A stretch of 64,000 bases of DNA from a virus: positions 1 through 64,000 of the IMG/VR virus record IMGVR_UViG_3300031673_000019. One strand, given 5' to 3'. The notes under the pieces are model-generated. The model saw nothing but the letters and a program-made list of their open reading frames with translations. It was not told the origin of the DNA and did not search any database. The position numbers and the translations under genes were made by a program. Below, in pieces: positions 1 to 57,015 of the stretch (position 1 is the first letter of the stretch; every line of letters starts with the position of its first letter).

Positions 1-137
1 CGACGAGGGCCAAGGGTCAGGGGCCCACGAACCACAAGGTCATCTCGGTGGTGTTCGAGGGCTACGAGGATGTCTACAACCTCGATGTTGCCGAGTATCA
101 TAACTTTGCGATCACGGGCGGCGTTTTTGTCCATAAT
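1..137 (+). other. C-terminal segment of an intein inside the portal protein
   Basis: The frame reads N-H-K-V-I-S-V-V, then G-Y-E-D-V-Y-N-L-D-V, then Y-H-N-F-A and ends V-F-V-H-N before Ser. These correspond to intein splicing blocks F and G: a DVYNL strand, the HNF motif and the terminal His-Asn followed by a nucleophile (Ser) as the first C-extein residue. All visible C-terminal catalytic residues (His134-region codon, Asn 135-137, Ser 138-140) are intact, so splicing looks possible. Whether a homing endonuclease domain is present cannot be seen, because the N-terminal part lies upstream of the window. Confidence 0.9.
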
Positions 138-1082
138 TCCGGCAAGTTGGACCTAAAATTCAACCCGCTGTCGCAGGACGAAGATTTTTTTGTGCCCGTA
201 AGAAAGGGAGTCCAGCAAACCAAAATTGAGGTTGTTGGAAGTCCTGCATGGCAGCACATGGAGGATGTGGAGTATTTCAAGGACAAGCTGTTTGCTGCCT
301 TGAAGATCCCGAAGGTGTACTTGGGGGCGGAGGCGCCGCGCGCTAAGGGCTCGCTATCGCAGCAAGATGTGCGATTTGCCCGAAGTGTCCTTCGTTTGCA
401 GCGAGAACTGAGGAATGGGCTGAAGAAGATAGCTCGTGTGCACTTGGCGGCACTTGGGATTGATCCTTCGCGGGTGGAGTACGAGATCTACATGACGCCG
501 CCGTCGTCGATCTTCGAGCTAGCGCAGCTCGAAGTAAGGAACGCGAAGGCGGACTTTGCTGGCCGGATGAACCAGTTCGTGTCCATGCATTGGATATTAC
601 AGAAGGTATTCGGGATGTCGGATACCGAGATCGAATACATCATCAAGCAGCGCCACGAGGAGCAGCTGGCGGACGCGGAGGTTCAGGCCAAGGCTATGGG
701 CCTCCAGCTCGACACCCAAGGCAAGGCCCAGATGCAGCAGGCCGCGGTGCAGGGTCAGCTCCAGCTCCAGCAGCAGGCACAGGCAGCCCAGCTCCAGCCG
801 CCGCAGGCCGCGGGCGGCAAGCAGGAAGGCGCAGCGTCGGACGACCTGCGCAAACACTTGCGTGACTCGAATGCAATGTCCCAGATATGGCCGTTAATGA
901 GACAGCCGGGTCGATATAAGTCGATTACGGAGCAGGAATTGTTTAGCGGCAATCGGGAGCACGAGAAGAAGATGGAGGAGCAGCTTGAGCAGCTGATGGA
1001 GGGCAATACTGGTTTAGGTAAGAAGCTCAACGAGTTACGAGAACTCATGAGTGATTTGAAAATGACGATGCCGAGGCACTGA
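1..1082 (+). CDS. Portal protein (T4 gp20-like), C-terminal part, interrupted by an intein
   Basis: The reading frame is open from the left edge, so the 5' end lies outside the window. The first 45 codons are the tail of an intein. The extein resumes at the Ser codon at 138-140 and continues for 314 residues. The extein has the layout of the T4 gp20 portal family: an acidic EDFFVPV segment like the gp20 MLEDFWLPRR region, then VEYFKDKLFAALKIPKVYLG and an RFAR-x-V-LRLQRELRNGL helix. The portal dodecamer sits at the unique capsid vertex and carries DNA during packaging and ejection. The C-terminus has a Gln/Ala-rich tract (about 705-800) and a charged helical end. The family call rests on motif recognition, since only the C-terminal half is visible. 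Confidence 0.85.
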   Translation, partial: TRAKGQGPTNHKVISVVFEGYEDVYNLDVAEYHNFAITGGVFVHNSGKLDLKFNPLSQDEDFFVPVRKGVQQTKIEVVGSPAWQHMEDVEYFKDKLFAALKIPKVYLGAEAPRAKGSLSQQDVRFARSVLRLQRELRNGLKKIARVHLAALGIDPSRVEYEIYMTPPSSIFELAQLEVRNAKADFAGRMNQFVSMHWILQKVFGMSDTEIEYIIKQRHEEQLADAEVQAKAMGLQLDTQGKAQMQQAAVQGQLQLQQQAQAAQLQPPQAAGGKQEGAASDDLRKHLRDSNAMSQIWPLMRQPGRYKSITEQELFSGNREHEKKMEEQLEQLMEGNTGLGKKLNELRELMSDLKMTMPRH

Positions 1083-12371: not shown

Positions 12372-13220
12372 ATGGGGCGCTTCGATAAATTCGTAGACAT
12401 TACCCAAACCTCCAGGGATCGAAATAACTGGAGGATGGTAACGGAGGAGCTGAAGGAGAGGACGCGCGCGGTGATGCGTGGTACGGCGTTTGCGGCGGCG
12501 CAGGCTGCGTACGAGGAGGTGCTGGGAAGCATCCCTAACACGGGCGAGTATCGCGAGCTTAGGTCGTCGCTCAAGATCAGTGAAATTGGCGGGGTGCCTA
12601 AGGACGACGGCGGGGCGTTTGCTGTGCATGTGCCCACTCGCGGGCGTCGGATCAGCAAAGTCGATGTGGGGAGGACGGTCATTTACGTAAGAGCCAAGAA
12701 GAGGCTCCGTAAGAACCGTAAGGACATCACGTATCTTGAGGACCATGGTCCGTGGACGGCGGACACGATTCCGTTTTGGCCTTCCTATAAGGAAGCTGTT
12801 GTGGTGCAGCGGAAGGTATCGAAGCGAGAAGCTGATGCGGTTGCGAAGTCTCAGGAGAGGGTGGCGCTGAAGGTAAGACGCGAGTTGAACGGGCTGGGCA
12901 AGAAGGTTGCTTCGAAGAAGAAGAACGCTGAGGGCGGCGTTAAGAGGAATCAGCGCAAGGCTGTTCCAGATGTGGCGATGCAGGCTTTGAACTTGGAATT
13001 CGGGTTGGAAGGGAGTCGGGCCAGGCCTGTGTTTCGCACTGCGTTGCGCAGGGTCAAGCAGCGAGCTAAGAACTTTGGCGGCGAACATCCTGCGCTCCGG
13101 GAGGCGCTGACGGATCCGAACTCGCAAAAGTGGAAGACTTGGCCGAAGAGGCACGATAAGATCTCTTCGTCGCGAGCGAACGAGTTCGCAGGGTTTCACA
13201 AGCGTCTAGGGTATTCATAG
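12372..13220 (+). CDS. Tail completion or head-tail connector protein (HK97 gp10-like)
   Basis: A 282-residue basic protein. The decisive feature is the C-terminal segment LEFGLEGSRARPVFRTALRR, the pattern (L-x-F-G-t ... a-R-P-F-l-r-x-A) found in HK97 gp10-like and related minor tail proteins. The N-terminal part has a helix with many Arg and Glu and a YLEDHGPW segment. Such proteins attach to the top of the tail and complete its join to the head. A helical Lys-rich insert (residues 150-200) makes it longer than most family members. Confidence 0.7.
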   Translation: MGRFDKFVDITQTSRDRNNWRMVTEELKERTRAVMRGTAFAAAQAAYEEVLGSIPNTGEYRELRSSLKISEIGGVPKDDGGAFAVHVPTRGRRISKVDVGRTVIYVRAKKRLRKNRKDITYLEDHGPWTADTIPFWPSYKEAVVVQRKVSKREADAVAKSQERVALKVRRELNGLGKKVASKKKNAEGGVKRNQRKAVPDVAMQALNLEFGLEGSRARPVFRTALRRVKQRAKNFGGEHPALREALTDPNSQKWKTWPKRHDKISSSRANEFAGFHKRLGYS

Positions 13221-13222
13221 CC

Positions 13223-13930
13223 ATGGTTTTGTCAGTAGACAACGATCGCACGGGCGACGTCTGGATCACGGACTTTGATCGTGGCGTTATCGAGACGCTT
13301 GGCGCAGTCGTGAATACCGCCGGAGATATTTACGTTATCAAGGATATCCCAGGGGTGTGCCCGCCTCCAGAGTATGAGGGTGTGCCTGTCTATTTTGCGT
13401 TCCCGGACGAGGTGATTGATCTGAAGATCATGCCGTCGTTCATTGTTCGGCGGGATGATACGTCGCCCGCGATGAGTCGCTGGCACCTGGGGAACCAGCA
13501 GTATCAAATTCCTGCACCCGGCGCAGGCGCGGTGACAATCACGAACCCCAGGACGGGGAATCTGATTGCGTCCGGCTTTGATTCGTACGAGGAGAAGGCT
13601 CAGGCCGTCCCGTTCGACATTCTGTACACGATCCAAATACGTGCTCGGTATCGTAACAATTTGAAGGTGGAAGCCATGAAGATGCTCCACTACACGCTGA
13701 AGAAGTACCCGCCGTACACGACGGTGTACCTCAGGGACAGCGAAGACCAGCTGCGCAGCTACACGGCGTTCATGGAGAGCCCCTCTCCGCAGGACACTCG
13801 TGGTGATGTCGCTGGACGCGAAACGAATTTCAACGTCTCCCTCCGGGTAGAGGCAGAGCTTGACCTGAACGATCCGGTCGCCCGCCAGGCCCTTACGAGC
13901 CTTCCGACGACGACTATCGAGATCTTTTAG
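13223..13930 (+). CDS. Tail terminator or sheath completion protein (T4 gp15-like)
   Basis: A 235-residue protein encoded just upstream of the sheath gene. It is beta-rich with an internal FDILYTIQIRARYRNNLKVEAMKMLHYTL region and a C-terminal strand ENFN-type segment (ETNFNVSLRVEAEL). Its size, order and the long helix flanked by beta strands match tail terminator proteins that cap the tail end of contractile phages. No catalytic motif is expected or seen. The name is a positional and pattern call. Confidence 0.6.
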   Translation: MVLSVDNDRTGDVWITDFDRGVIETLGAVVNTAGDIYVIKDIPGVCPPPEYEGVPVYFAFPDEVIDLKIMPSFIVRRDDTSPAMSRWHLGNQQYQIPAPGAGAVTITNPRTGNLIASGFDSYEEKAQAVPFDILYTIQIRARYRNNLKVEAMKMLHYTLKKYPPYTTVYLRDSEDQLRSYTAFMESPSPQDTRGDVAGRETNFNVSLRVEAELDLNDPVARQALTSLPTTTIEIF

Positions 13931-17046: not shown

Positions 17047-17529
17047 ATGTCTGTTAGCGTAGTGATCACGAATCTTTCCGCGTCGCCTGTCTCGCTGAGC
17101 GACCTGTACGTAACCCTTGGCGCAACAGGGTCGGCCACGGAGGCCGTGACGATTACTCGTAGCGTTTCCGAGCTGGACTCGATGAACGCGCTCAAGGAGC
17201 TTGTCAGCGCTGGCACTGTCAGTGTGGTCCCGACGCAGTCGGGGTCGAATGTGGACCTTTTGTCCGTGCCGCTTGAGCAGCATGGCGTTGAGGCCGCCCT
17301 CGACGTTGGGTCGATCGCCCTACTAACGGCCACCATTACGTTTGCGGAGCCATTTCCGGCAGGTGTTGTGCCTGTGGTGACGCTGTGCGTGGACAAGACC
17401 GACGGGCCCGATGCGCGCGGTGAAGTCTGGGTGCAGGACATCACCAATGCTGGGTTTGATTACTACTACGATGTGACGACGGCGGATGCCGGCGCCACGA
17501 ACGACCTCAACTGGAAGGCTACCTACTAG
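17047..17529 (+). CDS. Beta-rich protein with H-type lectin-like C-terminus
   Basis: A 160-residue product follows an ACAGGAG site. Residues 1-65 form a small beta-helix module beginning VVITNLSASPVSL with SVSELDSMNALKELVSAGTV. Residues about 95-160 fit the H-type lectin pattern: ITFAEPFPAGVVPVVTL, an EVWVQDITNAGFDYYY segment and a final LNWKATY strand. H-type lectin domains bind sugars. It lies between the sheath and tube genes, an unusual place for an adhesin, so it could decorate the tail surface. The N-terminal module resembles the N-terminus of the tubulin-like protein at 45422 and the small protein at 56725. Confidence 0.65.
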   Translation: MSVSVVITNLSASPVSLSDLYVTLGATGSATEAVTITRSVSELDSMNALKELVSAGTVSVVPTQSGSNVDLLSVPLEQHGVEAALDVGSIALLTATITFAEPFPAGVVPVVTLCVDKTDGPDARGEVWVQDITNAGFDYYYDVTTADAGATNDLNWKATY

Positions 17530-45088: not shown

Positions 45089-45181
45089 GTGAACGGCAAC
45101 AAGGAGCCGCCGCTCAGAAAATTTGCCTTACCTCTTGATGTGGACTGGACGCGACTCATTAAAGAAAAGCAGCAGCAATGA
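45089..45181 (+). CDS. 30-residue peptide, possibly coupled to the next gene
   Basis: GTG at 45089 after an AAGG site (8 bases away) encodes a 30-residue peptide (MNGNKEPPLRKFALPLDVDW...). Its TGA overlaps the next ATG as ATGA at 45178. The overlap and ribosome site are the only support. It might serve mainly to couple translation of the membrane protein. Confidence 0.4.
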   Translation: MNGNKEPPLRKFALPLDVDWTRLIKEKQQQ

Positions 45182-45375
45182 GTCCTGATGCTGTCATGGT
45201 CATGATGGTTGTGTTGGCCGTCGTGATCATCGCTGCCGACGTTGCCCTGGCGATGGATAGGCGGCGCGGGAATACGTATTCCGAGATCTTGCGCGCAGCC
45301 GGGGCAAGGTGGAAGCCTCTAATTTTTATGATCATTTTCGGGATGGGTCTGCTCACGGGCCATTGGTGGTGGTAG
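45178..45375 (+). CDS. Small membrane protein, two transmembrane segments
   Basis: A 65-residue product with two hydrophobic segments (about residues 4-25, AVMVMMVVLAVVIIAADV, and about 48-64, PLIFMIIFGMGLLTG) separated by a basic loop (RRRGNTY...). It ends with three Trp. Size and topology fit a holin-like or membrane-anchor protein, but no family is recognised. The tubulin-like gene begins 46 bases downstream, so a shared role is possible and unproven. Confidence 0.6.
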   Translation: MSPDAVMVMMVVLAVVIIAADVALAMDRRRGNTYSEILRAAGARWKPLIFMIIFGMGLLTGHWWW

Positions 45376-45421: not shown

Positions 45422-47023
45422 ATGTATAGTGCCGGCAGAGTGCTTGTATCCGTAAAAATAGCGAACACAGGCAGGCGGACGATTCAAAGGTCGGGAGGTG
45501 TCGAGCTTCCGCCTCCGTTCCATCTGCTCGTAATTTCTCCGGGGCAGTCCGCGGAGATGGTTTGTACCAAAGGTCAGATCGAAGAGCGGTGGCCTCATGA
45601 TTCTGGGTTTCGCGTAGCTGACCTACTTCAGCAGCTTGTCCAGTGCGGCATGATTACGATTGATATCTCTCCCTACAGCGACACTATTCTGCCAGTGGGA
45701 GCGGTTGATGTTGATTTGGCTAAGACGATCGGTCAAGATGCGCCCGGCTCGCTATATAATGAGTCGGGCGAAGGAGATGTGATGGGACCTAAGGACGACT
45801 TTCCTGATTTCTTGGATCCGCTGTACAACGCGCCTGCAGAGAAGAAATCGCCCAGCCGAAAGCCTGTGCGCAGCGAAGAGCCTGTGGAGAGGGCGCCGTC
45901 GGACCCTCTCTCGACCGGAGTCGACCTTCCCGACCCTGGGGAGCTTCCGTATGCGTCTAAGAAGAAGGACGACCAGAAGGATAAGTTCGATTCCGCGGTG
46001 AAGATGGCGTTCGTAGGAGCAGGCCAGGGCGGAGGCAGGATTGCCCAGTCGTTTTACGACATGGGCTATCGACGCGTGTGCTGTGTGAACACGACCCAGC
46101 AGGACCTGTCGTCGCTTTCGATCGAGAACAAGCTGGTGATTGGTCACGATCGCGGCGGGGCAGGCAAGGACCCTGAGCAGGGCCGCCTTGCCGCCAAGGA
46201 GTCGTTCGAAGACATCATGGATTTGCTGATGCGATCCTGGGGTCAGGGCGTCGAGCAAATGTGGGTGTGCGTGGGCGCGGGGGGCGGCTCGGGCACAGGG
46301 AGCTGGCCCGTGCTGGTAAAGGCGATGAAGGAATTCGGCGATTCCACGAATGTGGAAAAGCCCATCGAGAAGCATCTTGGCATCATTATGACGATGCCAA
46401 AGAGGAGTGAGGGGTCGCGCGTTCAGAAGAACGCTCTCACTGCATTGCAGCAGGCCGTGGAGCTGGTTGAGGCGAAGAAGATTAGCTCGCTCGTCATTGT
46501 GGACAATGCGAAAATCCACGAGCTGTACCCTGGCCTGCCTGTGAAGAAGTTCTGGGGTGCTGCTAATCAGAACTTTGCAGCGATCCTCCACACGTTCAAC
46601 CTGCTTGCAGCGCAAGACAGTCCATACAACACCTTCGACAAGGCCGATTTTCGGTCTGTGATTCGTAATGGGATCATGATCTTCGGCATGGCCCGCGTCC
46701 AAGACTGGGAGCACAAGGAAGACGTCAGTATGGCGGTGCGCCAAAACCTTGCCGGGTCGCTGCTCGCTGATGGGTTCGACTTGTCCAAGGCCAACATGGC
46801 AGGAGCAATCGTCGTGGCGCACGACGATGTGCTCGAAGAAGTCCCGATGGAGAACATTGACTACGCCTTCAACAGCCTGGGCCGTGCGCTAGGCAATGAA
46901 GGGGTCACTCTGCATAGCGGTATTTACGAATGGAACAAGCCGGGGATGATGGTCTTTACTATCGTGAGCGGCTTGCAGCCTCCGCAGACGCGTTTCGACG
47001 AACTTGAGCGGCTAGCAACGTAA
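45422..47023 (+). CDS. Tubulin/FtsZ-family GTPase with an extra N-terminal domain
   Basis: A 533-residue product. Residues about 194-533 show the FtsZ/TubZ order: an N-terminal nucleotide loop FVGAGQGGGRIAQSFYDMGY with a CVNTTQQDL strand after it, RGGAGKDPEQGRLAAKES, the tubulin signature VGAGGGSGTG (residues 284-293), an LGIIMTMPKRSEG strand, a SSLVIVDNAKI strand, and the T7 loop NTFDKADFRSVIRNGIMIF with the acidic pair Asp406 and Asp409 that completes GTP hydrolysis in the family. Residues 1-80 are a separate domain (VKIANTGRRTIQRSGG, HDSGFRVADLLQQLVQCG) and 120-190 an acidic and basic linker. Tubulin relatives polymerise with GTP; PhuZ of jumbo phages centres the phage nucleus. Here the gene lies inside a structural operon. 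The start region has only a weak ribosome site. Confidence 0.92.
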   Translation: MYSAGRVLVSVKIANTGRRTIQRSGGVELPPPFHLLVISPGQSAEMVCTKGQIEERWPHDSGFRVADLLQQLVQCGMITIDISPYSDTILPVGAVDVDLAKTIGQDAPGSLYNESGEGDVMGPKDDFPDFLDPLYNAPAEKKSPSRKPVRSEEPVERAPSDPLSTGVDLPDPGELPYASKKKDDQKDKFDSAVKMAFVGAGQGGGRIAQSFYDMGYRRVCCVNTTQQDLSSLSIENKLVIGHDRGGAGKDPEQGRLAAKESFEDIMDLLMRSWGQGVEQMWVCVGAGGGSGTGSWPVLVKAMKEFGDSTNVEKPIEKHLGIIMTMPKRSEGSRVQKNALTALQQAVELVEAKKISSLVIVDNAKIHELYPGLPVKKFWGAANQNFAAILHTFNLLAAQDSPYNTFDKADFRSVIRNGIMIFGMARVQDWEHKEDVSMAVRQNLAGSLLADGFDLSKANMAGAIVVAHDDVLEEVPMENIDYAFNSLGRALGNEGVTLHSGIYEWNKPGMMVFTIVSGLQPPQTRFDELERLAT

Positions 47024-47799: not shown

Positions 47800-50340
47800 T
47801 TGCCAGGCTTTGGTTCAGGACCCTTTGGTAAGGGGGCCTTCGGCGAGTGGCCGTGGGCTTCTGAGTCGATCGTCGACGGCATCCCTGCGGTCTACAAGGA
47901 ACAAGACGAAGGGGCTGGCAACGGTACCCTGAGTGCACTGCTTGAGGGTCTCGTCCCGTCACTTGAGTCACTGCGGCGCAAGATTCGCGACTACGATATC
48001 CTGCGAAACCCGCTGCTCGCCCCTGTCGACACGTCCTTCCAAACGACACAGTCGATTTTAAGAAGCGAGAACCTGGGCGACGGAACGTCGCGCGTCTTCT
48101 TGAGCGCAGGCTCCGACGGAGATAACCTGGACGGCCTCCGCGTAGGGATGGTGCTCATCGATTCCCGCGGGTATCGATTCACTATTTGTTCCGTGGCAAC
48201 GTCGACCTTGGCCGCCGACGTTGACGACCCGCCGGTGGATCCGGCGACGGGCGCCCTGACAGGGCGATACGTCATTGTCAATAATATCGGCCAGGTAAGC
48301 ACAGAATTCATCCCGTTCGTATCGGGGACAATCGTCGAGGACGAAGATCCTCTGGCTGGTGCGTTCCCGAACAGCCCAAACGACATTGACGATGGCGCAG
48401 AGCCCCCGCCCTACATCTTCAACGTGGAAGGTTCGTACCTTAGCGGCGACGACATCGCGTTGAACCGGGTCACGGTCACGTGGGAGGAAGGTGGCGACCC
48501 AAAGACCGGGTTTTTTGTCAATACCGGTAACCCTGGCGGAGATCTGGCGGACACTAGCGAAATCAACTATGACGTAGCCTCTACGGCGACAGGGCAGATC
48601 GTTCTATATACGGCGTCAGGTGCGACGATTGATGCGGACACGATTCGCGTCTCGTACACGAGGTCGGGCGGGGCCCTTGTTGAGGATGCCGAGGTTCGCG
48701 CGCAGAACATTTTGGCATTCCTTGCTGCCGACCGAGCGATTTCGCTAGACCTGAATGACCCAGAAGTCTACCAGCGCTCGTTCACAAACAGCGCTTTCAA
48801 GATATGGGAGATCAAAGGCACCGCGAACGGCTATCGCTACATGGGCGAGCTGGGCGGCTATTTTGTTGAAGCAATCCCCCTGTACGCGATCCCGTCGTCG
48901 CTAGCAGTCACGCTCGACCCTGCCACGGTCATCGCGAACCCAGAAGGCGAGTACGCCTCCGGGTCGATTGCGGCAGTGCCCGTAGCGTCGCTGGTTGACG
49001 GCGAAACGTTTACGCTAAGCGATGGAGAGAATCCTCCTGTCACGTTTGAGTTCGACACAGCTCCCATCTCAGTGACCGCCGGGAATGTCTCTGTGGACAT
49101 CAGCGCGGCAACCACAGCGTCCGATGTTGGTTCCGCGATGGCAACGGCCATCAACGGGGCGACGTTTCTGAATCTTGCCGCGGTGGGCGGTAGCACTGTC
49201 ACGGTCACGAATACAGTCGAAGGCGTCGTCGGCAATGTTACGGACTGGAGCGATACGGTTTCTGACCCGAACTTTATGATCAGCCAGCCTACCGGCGGAA
49301 TAGACCCGGTCTGGTTTACGATCATTGCTCCGACGCGGCTGCTGTTCGACGAGGTGATCGCCGACATCATTCCTCTCGACACGTTGTGCTCCGAAGACAC
49401 GTACCCCGGCGCGGTTCAAACGATCACCGTAACGGAGGTCGTTGCCGGCCAGGACCGAGGCAGCGAGACGGGATACACACTGACCGTGTCGACGGCGGAG
49501 ATGTACTTGTCTTTCGGCACGTTTGGCGAGCTGACCGACGCGAACGCGAACCTCTTTGACGTTCTTTCGTACACGCGCCTTACGGCATCGACGTTTGAGG
49601 TGGAAGTTGCATCGTCGCAAACGCCCGTCGTGGGAGCAGGGTCGATCGACTGGAGGGTCCTGCGGTTTACCGCTCCGAATACGGTGACCATTACGGGCAT
49701 CGGAACGGACGTGGAGGATCTTGGTCGCCAGACGGTGGGGTATTCGGGCCGGCGTTACCGTGTCACAAAGACATTCACCGATCCTCCGTTGGCCAGCATC
49801 GGCAACTGGCTTTTTATCGACGCAGATGGCGTCGCGTCGTACATCGAGCGGTTTGAGAACATTCCGTTGACGTCCGACTACGAGATTGAATTCGTGTCAG
49901 AAACTGTTCCGGCGGCAGGAACGGCGAATGTCTATGCAAGCTGCTCTCTGCAACCTAGCTGTGATTTCTGTGCGGCAAGCTCTGTGATCATTCGTGTTGT
50001 AGCTACAGCGATCAACGGGTACCCGGAAGCTATTGATTCTGGGTCGTTCGATCGGATCAGCGGCCGGGTGCTGCGCATGGTTCCAGGCCATGTAAAGCCG
50101 ATCATTCTGGGTATCGTCGACCCGCCAGAGCTTCTGTCGATTACGCCTGGGGACGGGACGAATACGCTGACATGGACAGACGTGGATGGCGCGGTGTCAT
50201 ACAACGTGTACTGGGATACGTCGCCAGACGTGTCTCCCTCTACTTCAAACAAGATTACTGGGGTGGTCTCTCCTTATCTGCACGGCGGTTTAACAAATGG
50301 TGTCACGTACTACTACGTCGTCGTGGCAGTGGGGATCTGA
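47800..50340 (+). CDS. Tail protein (gpI-like region) with LTLTG-like module and FN3
   Basis: TTG at 47800 gives 846 residues. Residues about 295-360 hold LAADRAISLDLNDPEVYQRS, NSAFKIWEIKGTANGYRYMG, the P2 I-type baseplate pattern. Residues about 385-500 hold a beta module (GSIAAVPVASLVDGETFTLS, ATAINGATF) related to that in the sheath and the 38369 protein. Residues about 774-846 are a fibronectin type III domain (GTNTLTWTDVDGAVSYNVYW, GLTNGVTYYYVVVAV). The gene is separated by 18 kb from the gpJ-like gene. Its stop overlaps the next ATG. Confidence 0.6.
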   Translation: MPGFGSGPFGKGAFGEWPWASESIVDGIPAVYKEQDEGAGNGTLSALLEGLVPSLESLRRKIRDYDILRNPLLAPVDTSFQTTQSILRSENLGDGTSRVFLSAGSDGDNLDGLRVGMVLIDSRGYRFTICSVATSTLAADVDDPPVDPATGALTGRYVIVNNIGQVSTEFIPFVSGTIVEDEDPLAGAFPNSPNDIDDGAEPPPYIFNVEGSYLSGDDIALNRVTVTWEEGGDPKTGFFVNTGNPGGDLADTSEINYDVASTATGQIVLYTASGATIDADTIRVSYTRSGGALVEDAEVRAQNILAFLAADRAISLDLNDPEVYQRSFTNSAFKIWEIKGTANGYRYMGELGGYFVEAIPLYAIPSSLAVTLDPATVIANPEGEYASGSIAAVPVASLVDGETFTLSDGENPPVTFEFDTAPISVTAGNVSVDISAATTASDVGSAMATAINGATFLNLAAVGGSTVTVTNTVEGVVGNVTDWSDTVSDPNFMISQPTGGIDPVWFTIIAPTRLLFDEVIADIIPLDTLCSEDTYPGAVQTITVTEVVAGQDRGSETGYTLTVSTAEMYLSFGTFGELTDANANLFDVLSYTRLTASTFEVEVASSQTPVVGAGSIDWRVLRFTAPNTVTITGIGTDVEDLGRQTVGYSGRRYRVTKTFTDPPLASIGNWLFIDADGVASYIERFENIPLTSDYEIEFVSETVPAAGTANVYASCSLQPSCDFCAASSVIIRVVATAINGYPEAIDSGSFDRISGRVLRMVPGHVKPIILGIVDPPELLSITPGDGTNTLTWTDVDGAVSYNVYWDTSPDVSPSTSNKITGVVSPYLHGGLTNGVTYYYVVVAVGI

Positions 50341-52823
50341 TGTCATACGAGAGCTTTCCAAGCAATGAACTTGATGGAGCACCGGAGTCGGGGCTCGACA
50401 CGCCTGTTCTCTCGATTGCGGGGCAGGGGGATGGCTACATTGACCTTTCCTGGGGCGCCGTCGCGGGCGCCGCAAGGTATTGCGTCTTCTACTCGTTCAC
50501 TCCAGGAGTCACGACAGACGCCGCGTCGCTGGCGTCTCTGAGCCTTGTCCTCAACCCTGGATCGGGTTCTAACCTTAGAATTGCTGACATAGATCAGACT
50601 GGCCTTGATATTACGTCTAATATCACGGTCGAGTGCTGGGTCAAGTTTGTTGGCGATATCTTCAATGACGATATCGACTTGGTTGCGAAAAATTCAGTCG
50701 TTTCGTCAGGTAGCTACGCCTTTCAGTTCCTGTACGGAGGAGGTGTACCGTCTCTGTCGTTTGCTTTGAGCGATGATGGAACGACGTTTGTGGATGTCAC
50801 GAGGGCGTGGTCGCCGGTGGCAGACACCTGGTACCATCTCGCCGCGACCTGGAACAGCTCGCCTGACAGGGCGCGGATCTACGTAGACGGCGTACAGCTA
50901 GGGGCCGACGAGGTCCTTGGAATTGCTTCTGTCTTTGATGGGACCTCCGACTTCAAGATTGGCCTCGGCGGTGCCGGCGTGTACACGTTCTATCTTGACG
51001 ACGTGAGGGTTTGGGACGTCGAGCGTACGGCTGGTGAGATCTCTTCCAACCGCAGCGTTCAGCTAGACCCTGCCTCCGAGGCTGACCTGCAAGGTTACTA
51101 CACGATGAGCGTCGTCGGGCGTGACGCGACGGCTAACGGCAATCATCTCTCCGAAGTTGGCTCGATTGCCTATGATGGCGATGTTCCGTTTGAGATCACT
51201 GGCACGTCGTTCAGGCACCTTGGCCTAGAGAGCGGCGCGCAGGTCTATTACATCATGGTGGCCAGGACGGCGGCAGCCGGGCGGTGCGGCTTTGGGGCAG
51301 GCACCGGCGTCTCTGCGGCCAGCGACGAAGAGAGCGGAGTTGCGCTAGGGGCTCCGACGTTGTCTGTGGCGGCCGGGGATGGCGAGAACGTTGTGACATT
51401 CACTTTTGTGGCTGGCGCAACCTCTTACAATCTTTACTTTGGGGCGTCTGGGGCAGGCCTTGGTGGAACTAAGATTACAGGCGCCACGACGCCGTACACG
51501 CATACGGGCCTCACGAATGGAGTAGAGGTTTGCTATGTGGCGACGGCGGTTGTCGGCGGATCCGAGTCCGATGCATCGAACGAAGACTGCGGCACCCCGG
51601 CGGCCGTTGGGGGTACGGAAGATATTGTTTTGCTAATGGGCGGAGTTGTTGGCACCAACGAAGTGAACATGGCCGCTCTGTATGATACCGGCGCAGGGAC
51701 CTGGACGTCGGGGGTCAATATGCCCATCGGCAGGGACGGCGCGTTCATATGCAAGCCGGAATCAGAGTATGCATTCTATATAGCGGGGGAGACACTGTCT
51801 GCCATTCAAAGCACTGGTTATTTCTATAACCATGACCTGGATGTGTACGGGGCTATCCCAGCTTTCCCGGAAGTGCGTAACGCTGCGTCCGCGATTCATG
51901 TTCCTGGCAGCGTTCACCCAAGCGGGACCGATCGTTTCTTTATTATGCTGGGAGCGGACGCCCTGGGCACCGGCGGCGCGACGAATACATCCTATGTGAT
52001 TGATCCGAATTCGGGATATGCATCGTCGGCATTGGCTGTGTTCCCTTATGCGAATGGGTACCGTAGTGCCTGGGTTGGCTTAACGTCCAAGACGACCGAT
52101 GGGAATCCGAAGCTCGTGATTATCTCAGGTGAGATCAGTAGCTCAGATCCGAACTACCCTTCGTGCACAGGTGACGGCGAGGACAAGGTGTTTATTTACG
52201 ATATAACAACCGACACCTGGAGCCAGGGCGCTGATATATCAGGGTTCACCACTGGCGGTGGAGTTTGTGCGTTTGACAGCACGTTAGATGGTCATTCGAT
52301 GATCGTCATGGATGACGGAAGGATATTGACGGTCGGAGGAAAGTGGGAAAGCACCACGCCTTCGTTTGGTGCATTGGCAGACTGCTTGATATATGACGCG
52401 GAGCTTGACACGTGGACAGCCACTGGTCCGCTGTCGGCGCCAAGGATGAGTGCATCTGTTTTGAGGTTGGCGAATGGAAAAATCATGGCCGTTGGCGGGC
52501 AGAATACCGCCAATACTTCAGTGGCGACGTGTGAGCTGTACGATCAGGCGCTCGGCACATGGACCACAGCCGCACCAATGTCGATTGCAAGGGAAGCTCC
52601 TTTTGCAATTTTGCTGTCGAGTGGAAAAGTTCTCGTGGCTGGCGGGAAGACGGGGGGATCGACGGCGACGAGCACGTGCGAGATATACGATCCTGACTTG
52701 GACACGTGGACTGCCACAGGCGCCCTGCCGACGGCGGCGGATCGCGGTGACGCAGACATCAGATCCGGCGTGCCAATGGGTGGCGGCGGGATGAATGGTC
52801 TTATGATTGTAGATACTTACTAG
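50340..52823 (+). CDS. Modular adhesin: FN3 interrupted by a LamG-type lectin, second FN3, and Kelch propeller
   Basis: ATG at 50340 gives 827 residues. An FN3 domain begins at residue about 18 (GYIDLSWGAVAGAARYCVFY) and its second half resumes at about 280 (FRHLGLESGAQVYYIMVAR), so a LamG/ConA-like lectin domain (residues about 65-275: LDITSNITVECWVKFVGD, DTWYHLAATWN, ARIYVDGVQLG, FYLDDVRVWDVERT) is inserted within it. A second FN3 lies at about 337-417. Residues 425-827 hold Kelch-type repeats (CLIYDAELDTWTATGPLS, GKIMAVGG, CELYDQALGTWTTAAPMS, CEIYDPDLDTWTATGALP). It is likely a carbohydrate- or protein-binding tail adhesin. Confidence 0.8.
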   Translation: MSYESFPSNELDGAPESGLDTPVLSIAGQGDGYIDLSWGAVAGAARYCVFYSFTPGVTTDAASLASLSLVLNPGSGSNLRIADIDQTGLDITSNITVECWVKFVGDIFNDDIDLVAKNSVVSSGSYAFQFLYGGGVPSLSFALSDDGTTFVDVTRAWSPVADTWYHLAATWNSSPDRARIYVDGVQLGADEVLGIASVFDGTSDFKIGLGGAGVYTFYLDDVRVWDVERTAGEISSNRSVQLDPASEADLQGYYTMSVVGRDATANGNHLSEVGSIAYDGDVPFEITGTSFRHLGLESGAQVYYIMVARTAAAGRCGFGAGTGVSAASDEESGVALGAPTLSVAAGDGENVVTFTFVAGATSYNLYFGASGAGLGGTKITGATTPYTHTGLTNGVEVCYVATAVVGGSESDASNEDCGTPAAVGGTEDIVLLMGGVVGTNEVNMAALYDTGAGTWTSGVNMPIGRDGAFICKPESEYAFYIAGETLSAIQSTGYFYNHDLDVYGAIPAFPEVRNAASAIHVPGSVHPSGTDRFFIMLGADALGTGGATNTSYVIDPNSGYASSALAVFPYANGYRSAWVGLTSKTTDGNPKLVIISGEISSSDPNYPSCTGDGEDKVFIYDITTDTWSQGADISGFTTGGGVCAFDSTLDGHSMIVMDDGRILTVGGKWESTTPSFGALADCLIYDAELDTWTATGPLSAPRMSASVLRLANGKIMAVGGQNTANTSVATCELYDQALGTWTTAAPMSIAREAPFAILLSSGKVLVAGGKTGGSTATSTCEIYDPDLDTWTATGALPTAADRGDADIRSGVPMGGGGMNGLMIVDTY

Positions 52824-56724: not shown

Positions 56725-57015
56725 ATGCTTACGTTGAACATCACGAACACATCTGGCACAGACATCGCTGCGGGCGACGGCGTTCTTCCCAGCGCATTGA
56801 GCTGGGTTGACCTGGCCGACACTGCCAACGTCGACGTTGTGATTCAGGTCGGAGACCTCGCGAGGGTCGAGACCAACCACTCGGGCTTTACGTTTGGAGA
56901 GCTTCTCCAGCAGCTCAAGCAGCGTGGCATCTGCACGTACAACGTCACCGACCTCGGCGACGACGAAGATGACGGCAGCGTGGCGGACCACGCCGTCGCA
57001 ACCGCAGCGGCGTAG
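56725..57015 (+). CDS. Small protein sharing the N-terminal module of the tubulin-like protein
   Basis: ATG at 56725 after GGAGGACG gives 96 residues. The sequence LTLNITNTSGTDIAAGDGVL followed by NHSGFTFGELLQQLKQRGI and a CTYNVTD strand aligns by eye with residues 7-83 of the 45422 product (HDSGFRVADLLQQLVQCG). Eleven of 25 residues in that segment are identical. The C-terminus is acidic with an Ala-rich end. It may be a structural protein carrying an interaction domain. The 111-base gap upstream shows no gene. Confidence 0.7.
   Translation: MLTLNITNTSGTDIAAGDGVLPSALSWVDLADTANVDVVIQVGDLARVETNHSGFTFGELLQQLKQRGICTYNVTDLGDDEDDGSVADHAVATAAA

Follow-up and report, generated by a model that had tools for sequence, protein, structure and literature searches.

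The window analysed here, a 64,000-nucleotide stretch that makes up most of a virus record of 76,157 bases, encodes a protein that by its sequence is a genuine member of the tubulin superfamily with the GTPase fold; the GTPase activity itself is predicted. It belongs to a clade of nine phage proteins that is not previously described in the sources searched, and it is probably a phage tubulin of the TubZ/PhuZ type, forming filaments in a GTP-dependent manner, that would make its partner contacts through its N-terminal part, where an additional N-terminal domain (NTD) would act as an adaptor. The features of the gene and its surroundings are collected in Table 1.

Table 1. Positions of the fused tubulin gene, its parts and associated features (window coordinates unless a relative is named)
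Feature	Position	Strand	Remarks
Small protein (two hydrophobic segments) immediately upstream of fused gene	45178..45375	+	L001: 41%, same place
Fused tubulin/FtsZ-family gene	45422..47023	+	533 aa; open ORF
NTD, residues 8-86, small alpha/beta	45443..45679	+	fused in window, L001 and L002 only
AAGGAG, Shine-Dalgarno-like, ahead of internal Met121	45771..45776	+	duplex -8.8 kcal/mol
Internal ATG (Met121)	45782..45784	+	aligns with the start codons of stand-alone relatives; second start possible
Motif A DPLYN, residues 132-136	45815..45829	+	8/9 members; ~10-26 residues past start
Motif B VDLPD, residues 167-171	45920..45934	+	9/9, loose pattern; 28-35 residues before GTPase
GTPase domain, residues 196-369	46007..46528	+	Pfam Tubulin E 9.8e-15
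T4 tubulin signature GAGGGSGTG, residues 285-293	46274..46300	+	
C-terminal activation domain, residues 392-519	46595..46978	+	Pfam TubZ-like_C (PF22453)
T7 catalytic loop NTFDKAD, residues 403-409	46628..46648	+	invariant N..D..D
Stand-alone NTD paralogue	56725..57015	+	separate small protein in window
Second stand-alone NTD paralogue	159903-160145		in relative G002
Winged-helix-like proteins	L006 9538-9858; L008 7541-7756; L010 8755-8994; L013 7225-7518		

The earlier note on this DNA had recognised the core from its tubulin signature and from an acidic pair in the T7 synergy loop, and both observations are borne out. The Pfam Tubulin profile matches the domain that carries the signature, and a phmmer comparison of the window protein with the PDB finds FtsZ as the best match (E 1.6e-18) and Bacillus cereus TubZ at 5.9e-15; a profile built from eight family members reaches 6e-21 against the PDB, and the family profile matches 4XCQ at 3.8e-11. 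In the AlphaFold model the GTPase half (pLDDT about 65-92) finds FtsZ and TubZ in Foldseek with E values of 1e-14 to 1e-17, the fold comparison that the earlier note had proposed; model confidence in the C-terminal half is low (pLDDT <50). A chance match of the signature is ruled out by these Pfam, PDB, family-profile and fold matches. The window protein scores 27.7 bits against TubZ-like_C (cut-off 26), and L002 is the sole member under that cut-off, at 21.1 bits. Motifs T1-T7 are kept in all nine members, with a T7 loop of the TubZ form FD..[DE] in which N403, D406 and D409 are invariant; with the GTP-binding loops and the catalytic T7 loop intact, the GTPase site that is completed between subunits is retained. 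As judged by codon comparison, the tubulin core is under strong purifying selection (dN about 0.09-0.11, with synonymous sites near-saturated).

The family comprises the window protein and its counterparts on eight distinct phage contigs from scans of IMG/VR (L001, L002, L006, L007, L008, L009, L010 and L013; L011 repeats L002 and L012 repeats L007, and neither was counted). Core identity to the window protein is 87% for L001 and L002 and 62-68% for L006-L010. The nine members form one clade (support 97/97), which groups with plasmid TubZ with support of 76/69 and long branches; the family thus probably lies on the TubZ side of the tree, with a grouping with FtsZ staying compatible (p-AU 0.24), and PhuZ is too divergent to be placed. 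The contig scan found no relatives in the bacterial genome collection, and about 50,000 phage records held no convincing one (hit H3 was left out of this reading). Two hits labelled "Acinetobacter phage" (H1 and H2) were rejected as host DNA, the flanks read in H1 being murG-murC-ddlB-ftsQ-ftsA-ftsZ-lpxC, and a faecal "Bacteriophage" entry (H4) was set aside as host-like, its FtsZ sharing a stretch with MurG. The record L019 (CAKLQH020000013.1), deposited as an Acinetobacter phage, carries a bacterial division and cell-wall cluster on a stretch that looks like mislabelled host DNA. The contig of the near relative G012 (197 kb) stops short of the homologous region, and the other records that share baseplate J are mostly short fragments, so the lack of a tubulin in these records carries no information.

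The core and synergy loop are held in common with FtsZ (E 1e-18), and some phages attack FtsZ; a tubulin decoy that poisons the host's FtsZ ring is nevertheless very improbable. Such a decoy would have no need of a fully conserved catalytic loop, the window protein fails the NCBI FtsZ equivalog model (95 bits against a cut-off of 295.2), and the FtsZ-type C-terminal linker with its conserved partner peptide is missing, the disordered, motif-bearing linker of this family being N-terminal instead. The equivalog score and the separate clade in the tree also rule out an FtsZ acquired from the host.

The closest relatives outside the family are the TubZ proteins of large Bacillales plasmids (for example in Pontibacillus, Planococcus and Alicyclobacillus), each encoded with a small upstream gene; B. 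cereus TubZ (4EI7) is a solved structure of this kind. The plasmid proteins are about 23-29% identical to the family and have the same fold, G-loops, FD..[DE] T7 loop and TubZ-like C-terminal domain, but the family differs from them in lacking the H11 extension and C-tail, in its long N-terminal linker with two motifs, in the NTD fusion of three members and in having no TubR or tubC that could be found adjoining. This kinship would suit a TubZRC-type partition system serving a phage genome that is plasmid-like or pseudolysogenic, as would a small protein, winged-helix-like by eye, that lies 0-2.3 kb upstream of the stand-alone tubulin genes of L006, L008, L010 and L013 and could be a TubR counterpart. 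We nonetheless consider partition improbable: no iteron array was found near the tubulin gene at the seven members tested, the sequence examined for the window, L001 and L002 has no copy of the winged-helix-like protein, the window gene has no tubR-like neighbour, and the family has no C-tail, which is the site of partner binding in known TubZ. Among phage proteins, phrog_17961 (E 4.9e-6) and the partition-type TubZ structures 3V3T and 4XCQ match the GTPase half alone, and the known partition-type member has a 50-residue C-tail (PMC5322520).

PhuZ (phiKZ TubZ, PHIKZ039) is likewise a tubulin encoded by a contractile-tailed phage, but its sequence is distant from that of the window protein; the PHROG PhuZ profile gives E 0.069 and tblastn finds no match in phiKZ-like phages, which rules out orthology. 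At its C-terminus PhuZ also has a helix and an acidic knuckle of its own, and its N-terminus is not significantly extended (PMC3678025). The earlier note had further separated the two by genomic region, virion against early, and this distinction fails, as a structural head gene lies 2.6 kb upstream of PHIKZ039. Compared with the nucleus-forming PhuZ phages, no chimallin match was found in ten partial records, a search that had no positive control and so carries small weight, and the role of PhuZ in a "phage nucleus" may not apply here. PhuZ is dispensable, and about one in three nucleus-forming phages lacks it (PMC10299810), so that patchy presence of a tubulin would be no argument against a PhuZ-like role. 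Phage tubulins are on record for jumbo phages and for huge phages (PMC7162821, PMC7824862); in literature represented mainly by titles and abstracts, no tail-less, N-terminally extended or NTD-fused phage tubulin is described.

The window protein ends in RFDELERLAT, and all nine members stop a few residues past R.DEL or R.EEL, the point at which the tails of TubZ, PhuZ and FtsZ begin. The claim that the protein has no typical C-terminal tail thus extends to the whole family: helix H11 and the flexible C-terminal tail of TubZ are missing from all nine, and so, in the alignment of the nine, is the acidic knuckle of PhuZ. This lack is striking because the published tails serve assembly and partner binding; in dilute solution TubZ needs its C-tail to assemble, and the same tail binds partner proteins (PMC5322520), and the PhuZ knuckle stabilises the filament (PMC3678025). 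It also argues against a filament, in that the natural tail-less form alone might not polymerise, since TubZ with its C-tail truncated failed to assemble in dilute solution (PMC5322520). At the opposite end, the members have a hydrophobic-poor N-terminal linker of 67-108 residues, which in the window protein is of low complexity (AlphaFold pLDDT ~25). The linker bears motif A (DPLY[DN]) and motif B ([VI]x[IL]P); in 2000 runs with shuffled linkers at most one sequence had either motif, a test that overstates the contrast with the real counts of eight and nine, since the patterns were picked post hoc and the members are related. Motif A occurs exclusively in the tubulin-family protein within the sequence examined.

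Upstream of the linker, the window protein carries the NTD, as do L001 and L002 (46-56% identity). The earlier note had described a separate domain of about 80 residues and a charged linker ahead of the GTPase and had called the domain novel, and it does indeed lack matches in Pfam, PHROG and the PDB by sequence and fold searches; the best viral matches in the fold search are small uncharacterised phage proteins (E >= 0.014). The isolated NTD is modelled with a pLDDT of 81.5, and its coding constraint is real, if weaker than that of the core. Stand-alone paralogues of it are encoded in the window and in G002. A small protein encoded after the sheath gene (window 17047-17529) had seemed related by eye, but hhalign gives this kinship a probability of 7%; the same protein has an H-type lectin match (5.8e-5) just under the Pfam cut-off.

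The statement that this is not a stand-alone tubulin gene, with the prediction that related phages keep the same fusion, holds true of the window and the two relatives nearest to it and does not extend to the other six members, which are stand-alone proteins of 408-448 amino acids (757 in L013, with the insert described below) that begin near the equivalent of window Met121. As the stand-alone members start there, with DPLY[DN] near the start in all but L009, the NTD fusion looks like a lineage-specific addition ahead of a complete older gene. The fused gene likely starts at GTG 45440 or ATG 45422; the ribosome sites at both (ATG1 and GTG7) are poor, and the starts of the relatives fall at residue 7-8. 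The best ribosome site within its 5' part is the AAGGAG ahead of Met121, equalled at 4.4% of 996 internal start codons; being better than the sites at ATG1 and GTG7, it suggests a second start at Met121. In L001 and L002 the sites preceding the Met121 equivalent are weak or ordinary, so the internal-start signal is confined to the window and an internal start as a trait of the whole family is unsupported by this comparison.

The window gene lies within a tail block, as the earlier note had it, with sheath, gp25-like and baseplate J genes upstream and, next to it, genes for a virion structural protein and for a fibre-like protein of Kelch/laminin-G type; its neighbours are tail- or fibre-like wherever any match exists. 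One of them (window 50172-52823) has a laminin-G/concanavalin-like domain and Kelch repeats and is probably a receptor-binding propeller. The window shows that this lineage has a T4-type portal and a contractile tail. Sheath and baseplate J are common to the records with virion genes and are 64-67% identical to those of the window in the fused relatives and 41-44% in most others, including L006, L007 and L010; a partial G008 sheath match is at 55%. The small protein encoded directly upstream of the fused gene is kept in L001, but no counterpart was found in G002, and it was dropped as a conserved membrane partner.

This setting would fit a virion-linked GTPase, a tail component, structural or ejected, that the NTD anchors: each of the three fused members has its gene in the tail/fibre block, and downstream of that block comes the NTD paralogue. 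That reading is also improbable, however, as the NTD is missing from six of nine members and the tubulin is far better conserved than its neighbours, whereas one would expect a component of the virion to evolve as they do. The position of the gene varies as well, from directly after baseplate J in L007 to tens of kb away from the virion genes in L006 and L010; because the tubulin outconserves sheath and baseplate proteins and shifts position, the tail location is not defining.

Three members (L001, L002 and L013) carry an in-frame insert of 340-346 amino acids in the T7 loop, between N403 and T404 (46630/46631); the window copy is without it. The insert starts with C[VL]DA[ED]TEALT.RGW, has an internal TP[DN]HRWLVT block and two stretches that are LAGLIDADG-like by eye, and ends in TGN before Thr. 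The pattern for intein splicing is thus present (first residue Cys, last residue Asn before Thr/Ser/Cys, and homologues without the insert); Hint_2 gives E 0.011, below the cut-off, and the PDB contains no significant match to the insert. The splice-site pattern of the insert, together with the clean lack of the insert elsewhere, is why we consider it intein-like. It is independent of the NTD fusion, since L013 is a stand-alone member. Inteins are typically found at conserved, functionally essential sites, and if this insert is one, GTPase competence would hinge on protein splicing. In L002 a free-standing ORF of LAGLIDADG-like, homing-endonuclease type (by eye; 13050-13880) lies 0.8 kb downstream of the insert-bearing tubulin gene. 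At window 48-140, the portal gene (T4 gp20-like) starts inside an apparent intein C-terminal end (...NFAITGGVFVHN|S), which the beginning of the record cuts. Several essential genes of this phage lineage may contain inteins. No natural intein in FtsZ or TubZ is described in the literature covered, again mainly titles and abstracts.

For the filament-forming phage tubulin that we favour, the subunits would assemble head to tail and hydrolyse GTP in the manner of TubZ and PhuZ, giving a cytomotive filament that binds partners through the N-terminus. The NTD, kin to a separate phage protein, could be an adaptor that joins the filament to a phage component, possibly the tail or assembling particles, and the internal start at Met121 may yield mixed subunits with and without it. 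Late in infection, such a filament would likely serve to place progeny particles or DNA within the host. A more specific version, in which the partner and bracing parts have shifted to the N-terminus, the internal start makes the adaptor sub-stoichiometric and the filament is coupled to tails or particles, is put forward tentatively and seems rather unlikely as a whole.

The finding would widen the range of phage cytoskeletons to phages that have a T4-type portal and yielded no chimallin match. The NTD fusion would offer a physical handle for finding the filament's cargo, and a conserved, naturally tail-less clade with its motifs at the opposite end would test how general the C-tail rule is.
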